Positions 5,361 to 11,828 of a DNA stretch of 64,000 nucleotides are shown here, in pieces (position 1 is the first letter of the stretch; each line of letters starts with the position of its first letter). Source of the DNA: Halapricum desulfuricans (GTDB lineage: Archaea > Halobacteriota > Halobacteria > Halobacteriales > Haloarculaceae); the NCBI RefSeq assembly GCF_017094465.1, contig NZ_CP064791.1:372001-436000 (forward strand), given 5' to 3'. Below the pieces are notes generated by a model. It did not search any database. It saw only the letters and a list, made by a program, of their open reading frames with translations, and was not told the DNA's origin. The position numbers and the translations under genes were made by a program.

Positions 5361-5368
5361 GGTTGCTA

Positions 5369-5448
5369 ATACTGGTTGCGATACGTTCGGACAGATATTC
5401 GGCACGCTGTCGTGCCGCATCATTTCGAAATGGTATCGCCACCAGTAT
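5369..5448 (-). repeat. 80-bp palindromic repeat, copy A
   Basis: This element has 16-bp terminal inverted repeats (ATACTGGTGGCGATAC at the end near 5448 and its near-complement near 5369) and a second inner stem on the same symmetry axis (CGGCAC/GTGCCG around 5401-5418). Copy B at 11629-11708 is also exactly 80 bp and differs at 13 positions (about 84% identity). Two of the differences are compensatory pairs that keep the stems. No target-site duplication is obvious. It lies between two divergent genes. It could be a miniature mobile element or a structured RNA. Confidence 0.8.
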
Positions 5449-5526
5449 ACGCGCGATGCGGCCCACCGAGGTCGACGCCGTCAGGTCAGCGCTAGGCTTT
5501 TGCTCGCCGCGCGGTGAGATTCGACA

Positions 5527-6542: not shown

Positions 6543-7883
6543 CTACGACTCGCCGGAGGCAACATTCCCGTCACGGTGGACGGTACTCGGGTCTGTGCGC
6601 TGTTCTTTGGGACGGTGAGAGCGTGGTGACTCCGACCAGTCGTGGTCGTCCCACTCAAACCGCACGGGCCGTGCCATCGGCCTGACCGCTTCCTCTGTGT
6701 GCCGCTCTAGGAATGTTTCCGACGCTGTAAGGTCGGCGTGCCCCTCGAACCCACACGGACAGGTGAGTGTGTCCTGATGCCGTGTCGTTCGGTCTGTCGA
6801 ACCACACTGCGGGCATTCCTGACTGGTCCACGCCTCTGACTGGACTTCGACCGTGATACCGTATTCTTCGGCAGTACAGACCAGTCGCTCGGTGAATTGC
6901 TTGAATGCCCAGAAGTTATGGGTCTTGGCGTTTGTCTCGACCGACCAATGCGTGTCCAGTACGTCGGTCAACCCGCCGATATACAGTGTGTCCACGCCTT
7001 CGGCGTACAGTCGTTCCAACAGGTCACGACACAACGCTTCCTGAGCGTGGTCCCGGCGACGAGTCCGTTTCTGGTACAGTCGCCGGATACGCTTGCTACT
7101 GTATCGGCCTTCTTCGAGTTTCGACTGTAACCGGGCGATTTCTCGCGTCGTGTCGCGGAATCGCTGGAACAACTCGCGGCCTTCGTACAGGTATTGCTCG
7201 CCGGTCGTGGTGGTACAGGCGACGAGATTGTTTGCACCAATGTCCAGAGCGGCCTTTTCATCGGCCAGTGGAGTATCCCGTGTCTCGTCAGAAACAGTCA
7301 CGGGTTGCGAAGCCCTGAACGTGCTATCAGTCTCGTCGTACCACAGGTCTAACCGACCCTGTTTCTCGTACTCGGGCCAGTTCGGGTCGCCAGTGATTTC
7401 CAGACGGAGACGCCCAGTGTGGTCGTATCGGTCTTTCAATTCACTCCCGACCAGTATTTCGAGTCGGGAGCGTTCGCCCCATTCGACGGTGTACGACGTG
7501 TTGCGGATGACGGTATGGAGTTTGCGGCCCTCGTCTTTGTTGCCCCAGAATCCCGGTGGTTCCGGGTATTCAGTGACGGACGTATCCGAATCGTCGTGAT
7601 ACGCTTTCTTGTTCTCGAAGAATCCGCGCCATGCTTCGGAGTTCTTCCGTATCACCTGTTGGGCGGTGGACGCACCGAGGACGCCTTTGTATTTGCCTTC
7701 GAGTCGGCCTGTATCGGCGTCCCACACGTCTTCGTTTTCGTATCCGCCTTCGTCGTTGTACCGCATGAGGCGTTCGTAGTTGACTTCGTTCCAGAGAGCG
7801 GCGGAAGCGTCCAACAGGTCGCGTAGCAGTTGCTCTCCGGTATCGGAGAGCGGTCGCACGGCGAACGTGTTGGTACGCTTCAC
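6543..7883 (-). CDS. tnpB: TnpB-family RNA-guided nuclease homologue with altered RuvC-II motif
   Basis: The 446-residue protein is a TnpB (IS1341-type OrfB), ancestor-like relative of Cas12. It starts at GTG (7883). RuvC-I is DIGANN with Asp214. The four-cysteine zinc ribbon CPQC...CPCG is near residues 355-377. RuvC-III is HADLTAS with Asp384. The RuvC-II position, normally a glutamate in an IxxExL-like strand, reads YIGGL (glycine at residue 303). A glutamate at 350 (SEAW, just before the zinc ribbon) might substitute. It may therefore be inactive, or use a rearranged active site. Full length suggests it is not simply decayed. Confidence 0.9.
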
Positions 7884-10999: not shown

Positions 11000-11629
11000 A
11001 TGGACGCAAACCAGGAGTCACCGTACAACCCGTTCGGGATGGACGAGTCGTGTCAGAACTGTCCCGAACTGGCCGAGAGCCGGACGCAGGTCGTCCACGG
11101 CTACGGCGACGTGAGCGCGGAGTTCGCGTTCGTCGGCGGCTACCCCGACAGCGGGGCCGACGAAATCGGGATTCCCTTTATGGGTGCGGGCCGGGAGACG
11201 ATGCTCGAAATCCTGCGGGCGACCGGATTCACCGAGTCGCCGCTGGAGACGACCGAACCCGAACTGGACAACGCCGTGCTGACCTACGCCGCGCGGTGTC
11301 ACCACCCCGACCGGGAGCCGACAGAAAAGGAGTTCAGCGCGTGTGAGTTGTATCTCACCAGCGAACTCCGGATGATCAACCCCGAGATCATCGTCGGCGT
11401 CGGCCAGCACGCCCTGGAGGCGCTGGCCTGGGAGTACACCACCCGCGACGCCGAGGAGTTCGACGTTGAGGCTGAGCACGCCACGACCGTCCACGGACGC
11501 GGGTTCGACATCGTGCCGATGATCGAGCCGCCCGAACAGACCGACGCCCAGACCGACGCGCTGATCGAGCACATGCTCGACGTGCTGGGCCGGGACTACC
11601 GACAGACGAAGGGGCGCCGTGGTCGCTGA
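11000..11629 (+). CDS. Family 4 uracil-DNA glycosylase, [4Fe-4S]
   Basis: This 209-residue enzyme removes uracil from DNA to start base-excision repair. The family 4 signs are the cluster cysteines (CQNC near residue 16, later Cys in AARCHHP and EFSAC) and motif A in the form GYPDSGADEIGIPFMG, which normally reads GEAPGxxE. The second catalytic motif, normally HPS, is not clear; the region reads MIEPPEQTD, so the protein is a divergent member. The stop codon's final base is also the first base of palindromic repeat copy B. Confidence 0.85.
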   Translation: MDANQESPYNPFGMDESCQNCPELAESRTQVVHGYGDVSAEFAFVGGYPDSGADEIGIPFMGAGRETMLEILRATGFTESPLETTEPELDNAVLTYAARCHHPDREPTEKEFSACELYLTSELRMINPEIIVGVGQHALEALAWEYTTRDAEEFDVEAEHATTVHGRGFDIVPMIEPPEQTDAQTDALIEHMLDVLGRDYRQTKGRRGR

Positions 11630-11708
11630 TACTGGTGGCTATACCATTTCGAACTGATCCGACACGACGGTGTGTCGGATGTCTGTACGAACGCATAGCC
11701 ACCAGTAT
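11629..11708 (+). repeat. 80-bp palindromic repeat, copy B
   Basis: This copy has the same 80-bp length and symmetric layout as copy A at 5369-5448, in the opposite orientation. The outer stem is ATACTGGTGGCTATAC pairing with GCATAGCCACCAGTAT, with one A-C mismatch. The inner stem is CCGACAC/GTGTCGG (11659-11678). It starts on the last base of the glycosylase stop codon. Relative to copy A, paired changes G-C to T-A (element positions 12/69) and G-C to A-T (34/47) preserve pairing. Confidence 0.8.
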
Positions 11709-11828
11709 GAGAGGCCGCCAGGTTCGGTGCGACCGCTGGCAGCGTGGGGGCTGTGATCGCCGATGGACGCGGGGAGTCGCGAGCGCCGTTTGGCAAGCGT
11801 TATGCCGGGCGGGGAAGTCACGTCAGGT

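Follow-up and report, generated by a model that had tools for sequence, protein, structure and literature searches.

The window analysed here, which comprises 64,000 nucleotides of the Halapricum desulfuricans genome (contig NZ_CP064791.1, positions 372,001 to 436,000), contains two palindromes, A and B, lying 6.2 kb apart in inverted relative orientation, with 82% identity across 88 nt. They had been placed at 5369-5448 and 11629-11708 in an initial annotation, and they are indeed present there. Copy B sits on the TGA stop codon of a gene of the uracil-DNA-glycosylase superfamily and duplicates that stop, and an IS1341-type TnpB gene is located between the two copies (6543-7883, minus strand).

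Both palindromes had been described as exactly 80 bp long. A palindrome of this length exists, but the element proper measures 78 bp, and the outer A...T belongs to flanking TNA repeats (Table 1). A direct comparison of the 78-bp cores confirmed the 13 differences between A and B as well as the two compensatory pairs, 11/68 (G-C to T-A) and 33/46 (G-C to A-T), which are 12/69 and 34/47 in the 80-bp numbering. The stability z scores range from -6.2 to -8.7 for RNA folding and from -4.7 to -7.7 for DNA folding, and none of 200 shuffled sequences was equally stable. A scan of the window with R2, a covariance model built from 42 diverse copies that include A and B, gave exactly two matches, B (E = 2e-22) and A (E = 5e-20), the next one being at E = 0.16.

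Table 1. Coordinates of copies A and B and of their parts in the window
Feature	Positions	Strand	Evidence or remark
Copy A, complete 78-bp element TACTGGTGGCGATAC...GTATCGCAACCAGTA	5370..5447	-	R2 80.4 bits, E 5.1e-20, full length 1-78
Left flank of A, TAA, decayed target duplication	5367..5369	.	TAA / TAC non-identical
Right flank of A, TAC, decayed target duplication	5448..5450	.	flank reading
Copy B, complete 78-bp element TACTGGTGGCTATAC...GCATAGCCACCAGTA	11630..11707	+	R2 88.9 bits, E 2.2e-22, full length
Left target duplication of B, TGA, the stop codon of the uracil-DNA-glycosylase-superfamily gene (gene end 11629)	11627..11629	+	
Right target duplication of B, TGA	11708..11710	.	
Outer stem / terminal inverted repeat of B, left arm, pairing with 11693-11707	11630..11644	+	fold, covariation, R2
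Outer stem / terminal inverted repeat of B, right arm	11693..11707	+	fold, covariation, R2
Inner stem of B, left arm, element positions 28-37	11657..11666	+	covariation, R2
Inner stem of B, right arm, element positions 42-51	11671..11680	+	covariation, R2

Repeated mobility of the 78-bp element across the Halobacteriales

The end motif of the element occurs in pairs, at a constant spacing of 62 bp between repeat starts, that are dispersed over the chromosome of H. desulfuricans. A DNA search of this genome found about 15 full copies, and R2 gave 46 strand-wise matches, which amount to roughly 25 elements because one palindrome may match on both strands. Some congeners carry dozens of copies: R1 matches, again counted by strand, number 143 in G001, 126 in G005 and 91 in G002, and are few in G003 and G004. 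The family was matched in 69 of 146 genomes of the host family, a group that includes Haloarcula and Halomicrobium (as seen from coordinates in common with named plasmids), and in 73 of 391 genomes of the host class. In a phylum-wide sample of 393 genomes, the 18 that matched all belong to one order, the same as that of the host. Members were found in several families of the Halobacteriales, with six copies (12 matches over two strands) in Haloquadratum walsbyi C23. In the genomes G001, G072 and G188, multiple copies were tied at the top score and are apparently identical, and the plasmid pair pLC1Hm-01 / pHmuk01 has few TSD-flanked copies. A strict-pattern scan of genome contigs returned three loci, all from SHR40, and a search for a viral vehicle in phages and IMG/VR found no match to the element.

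With the border set at TACTG...CAGTA, 45 of 54 copies from three genomes had identical 3-bp flanks, and the same was true of 106 of 121 sampled copies, as opposed to 4, 3, 3 and 1 of the 121 when the flanks were read 3, 6, 9 and 12 bp further out as a control. Being direct repeats, these 3-bp flanks do not belong to the palindrome. With the single exception of one TGT, the matched flanks have the form TNA (TCA 51, TGA 39, TAA 9, TTA 6). The lengths of end-paired, TNA-flanked elements are concentrated at 78 bp (97 elements, with 12 at 79 bp, 5 at 77 bp and 4 at 80 bp), and copies in other families, C23 included, are almost all 78 bp long with TNA duplications. The five C23 copies that we read all carry 3-bp TNA duplications, and each consists of 78 bp plus a pairing A/T, which makes 80.

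Two copies in G001 (L139 and L144) are nested in a 79-bp sister element and read GGTTGTAA-(78 bp)-TAAGTCTG. Deletion of 78 + 3 bp, that is, of the copy plus one TAA, restores 79-bp elements that are 2 or 4 bases off an intact copy and are themselves flanked by TCA. Furthermore, the site of A is without the element in G001 and G005, that of B in G001, G002 and G005, and that of a further copy, 2092k, in G005, in each case with conserved flanks; the spacers at these orthologous sites are too diverged for base-exact junctions, and only the nested cases provide exact empty sites. Hence, the element has moved repeatedly across the Halobacteriales. Of the "selection or mobility" suggested in the initial annotation, mobility is borne out by target duplications, by exact empty sites in the nested cases and by empty orthologous sites, and the covariation of the fold holds on a larger set of copies. 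The covariance-model search of haloarchaea proposed there as a check yielded many copies with covarying stems, in addition to target duplications and empty sites. At one intergenic site (G000:C1:2092731 versus G002:C12:169379, L115), H. desulfuricans carries a GGTGGC-type element and the congener a GCCGGC-type element of a different subfamily.

Several other palindromes and derivatives were encountered. Hairpins of 79 bp (TACGGTSGGTTGTA... or TACGGATTATTGTA...) form a second family; they show the same TNA duplications and often adjoin 78-bp elements with the TNA in common; they are found at L015:1404-1482, in L139 and L144, and on pHmuk01 at L230:4602-4680 and L231:19164-19242, and they are probably moved by the same machinery as the 78-bp elements. 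Halomicrobium plasmids carry a third palindrome, likewise dispersed and 84 bp long (TATAGTAAC...ACTATA), at L227:49638-49721, L230:21346-21429, L230:37442-37525, L231:30965-31048, L232:15141-15224 and L233:19194-19277; it has no 3-bp duplication and is possibly TA-targeted. At L268:4939-4962, a 24-bp derivative is made up of the two ends only (TACTGTCGGCTATAGTCGACAGTA), with TCA on both sides. Single-end remnants near the middle of L207, L209, L214, L217, L267 and L270 retain about 14-20 bp of one end, mostly beside TNA, which suggests one-sided deletions of recurrent extent.

Gene context, covariation and what the palindromes are

When genes were called from ORFs and codon composition, almost all of 53 copies proved intergenic; they occur in all gene orientations, 8 of them between divergent genes. 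Seventeen of the 53 start exactly at a stop codon, as B does. Judged by the TNA sites available in the same gaps, 9.2 of 38 copies would be expected to start at a stop codon, whereas 16 did so. Read simply, TNA-type stop codons serve as targets, and the protein stays intact when such a codon is duplicated. As the TNA specificity covers TGA and TAA stops and the protein is spared, most of the excess at stop codons needs no function.

Pairing is kept in 91.1% of cells across the 42 diverse copies, and 19 of the 25 pairs change on both sides. Both-side changes amount to 138 cells, compared to 50.8 after shuffling (0 of 500 shuffles reached the observed value) and to 9-27 cells in slid controls; these counts are inflated by the kinship of the copies, which were recognised by their ends, the inner stem not being used. 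The covariation is real in both stems, the outer repeat (where pair 6 appears as G-C, C-G and T-A) and the inner stem, but does not by itself show that there is an RNA. In the outer stem it is compatible with recognition of the ends by one enzyme, and in the inner stem it hints that the full hairpin may matter. In an alignment of 108 unique 78-mers, the inner stem had 56 G.T versus 20 A.C on the strand with CATTTCGAA first, and the outer stem had 29 of each, such that a possible strand asymmetry is confined to the inner stem.

We regard it as very probable that A and B are copies of a transposable element that is exactly 78 bp long, carries no gene and is non-autonomous. It has terminal inverted repeats of 15 bp (TACTGNNGGCTRTA...) and, inside them, a hairpin that covaries, and it duplicates its 3-bp target TNA, which in most cases is TGA or TCA. 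The very stable fold and the strong covariation could also be expected of a structured RNA, either a small RNA or an element for processing or stability in the 3′-UTR, kept by selection on its fold. In co-directional contexts there was moreover an excess of G.U over A.C on the transcribed strand (18 versus 7), but this excess is small and comes from related copies. The copies carry target duplications, nest in other elements, occur in all gene orientations and are missing from orthologous sites in congeners, and the covariance models of Rfam 15 gave no match to the element; a structured RNA is therefore highly improbable. For the same reasons, namely the lack of an Rfam match and positions that differ between related species, the proposal of a protein-binding or RNA-functional site in the internal loop finds no support. 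A fixed bidirectional terminator or regulator-binding palindrome at gene ends might account for the roughly one third of the 53 copies that begin exactly at a stop codon, but TNA targeting explains most of that excess, several copies lie between divergent genes, and the sites are not conserved, so that we give this reading slightly less credence still. Finally, the proximity and inverted arrangement of A and B might have resulted from a recent local duplication of one palindrome that has no wider family. This is refuted by the many copies genome-wide and in related genera, and the idea that the similarity is confined to two recent duplicates gives way to a dispersed family in many genomes.

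How the element may move

A parent transposon sharing the ends of the element was searched for in several ways. None of the end motifs lacking a partner at 78 bp that were inspected in G000, G001, G005, G188 and G072 terminated a longer coding element; they were degraded 78-mers, remnants of a single end or chance matches. At the sampled loci, TNA-flanked paired ends 400-3000 bp apart delimited only spans built of 78-mers, and long end-to-end spans of 780, 1098 and 1491 bp were made up either of two separate elements or of a single one interrupted by an ISH8-like IS. The sampled DDE_Tnp_1 loci of G000, G001, G005 and C23 have other ends, none of them shared with the 78-bp element, and G005, which carries dozens of copies, yielded no more than two DDE_Tnp_1 matches, both weak. 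PF13359 was absent from all four of these genomes. A parent may nevertheless exist, as the search covered sampled stretches, DDE_Tnp_1 and PF13359. At L245:1008-2498, an ISH8-like IS with a 10-bp duplication (CTTTACGAAC) interrupts a 78-bp element, and the whole arrangement lies within a larger TIR-flanked segment of 1.9 kb.

The likeliest mechanism, which we favour with some reservation, is a double-strand transposase acting in trans with a 3-nt stagger. Such an enzyme would bind both ends of the element, cut with the 3-nt stagger and insert it at TNA. Surviving insertions would then be mainly intergenic, often exactly on a stop codon regenerated by the duplication, and the paired changes would represent subfamilies whose two arms changed together, either because one enzyme has to fit both ends, or because the folded hairpin or cruciform plays a part in movement, or both. 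A plain model of recognition of the terminal inverted repeats, however, does not require covariation of the inner stem. The main rival is a chromosomal enzyme that recognises the folded hairpin and moves it, as RAYT does with REP palindromes, instead of an end-sharing transposon. The absence of such a transposon from the samples examined, the fixed length, the covariation in both stems and the scarcity of DDE_Tnp_1 matches in G005 speak for this, but the 3-bp duplications are near universal here, unlike in RAYT/IS200-type transposition. Single-strand transposition of that type makes no target duplications, and we consider this rival rather unlikely. In a tentative variant, to which we would give a similarly small chance, the whole 78-bp hairpin is the substrate, and a host-encoded enzyme moves the cruciform or folded single strand and joins it with a 3-nt stagger at TNA. 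If true, such a system would transpose without an autonomous transposon that shares its ends, and it would account for why the length is fixed and both stems covary.

Relation to known repeats

Like REP palindromes with their RAYT enzymes, the 78-bp elements are abundant, gene-less and extragenic, and their movement by an unlinked enzyme is possible. However, REPs are much shorter and lack flanking 3-bp duplications, and the 3-bp duplications present here set the element apart from REP/BIME sequences with RAYT. It is short, multi-copy and dispersed, without coding capacity, and has terminal inverted repeats and a target-site duplication. In being short, non-coding, mostly intergenic single hairpins with such repeats and duplications, the copies resemble prokaryotic MITEs such as Correia elements, RUP and ERIC (PMC10969869), but they are much shorter than typical MITEs, their length is fixed across families, their inner stem covaries, and their parent transposon was not found in the samples examined. 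IS605-type transposons and the haloarchaeal PATEs have palindromic ends and the same hosts, and a TnpB gene is present between A and B. Both groups, however, cause no target duplications, as listed for IS605-type elements, and are without terminal inverted repeats (PMC3119063), whereas the 78-bp element has both features.

The closest counterpart is found in H. walsbyi C23, where the SMR-B repeats (HqIRS41 of 80 bp, and HqIRS40) were described as inverted repeats unrelated to known transposons with an "enigmatic" mobilisation, and SMRs as making no target duplications (PMC3119063). HqIRS41 resembles the present family in its 80 bp (78 plus the flanking A...T), its terminal inverted repeats, the absence of genes and the low copy number in C23, and, judged by its published description, it is probably the same element. 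It was described without target duplications, whereas the five C23 copies all have them; if the outer A...T was counted into the repeat, this would hide the 3-bp duplications. On the point of target duplications the five C23 copies read disagree with the published account, so that we do not claim membership in SMR-B as described. The earlier remark that no named family was known for the palindrome was only partly right, given that the Haloquadratum SMR-B repeats are probably, by their description, the same family; a search of the open-access literature found no later description of it.

Our analysis proposes a likely identity for one "enigmatic" small mobile repeat of haloarchaea, sets its borders exactly and adds a target duplication, and it indicates that such elements are widespread in the Halobacteriales and not a curiosity of Haloquadratum. 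With its fixed length and covarying stems, the 78-bp element is among the smallest mobile DNAs, and because it combines these properties at so small a size, the question of what moves it is directly testable. More generally, compensatory changes in genomic palindromes can stem from transposon subfamilies and not from RNA function.
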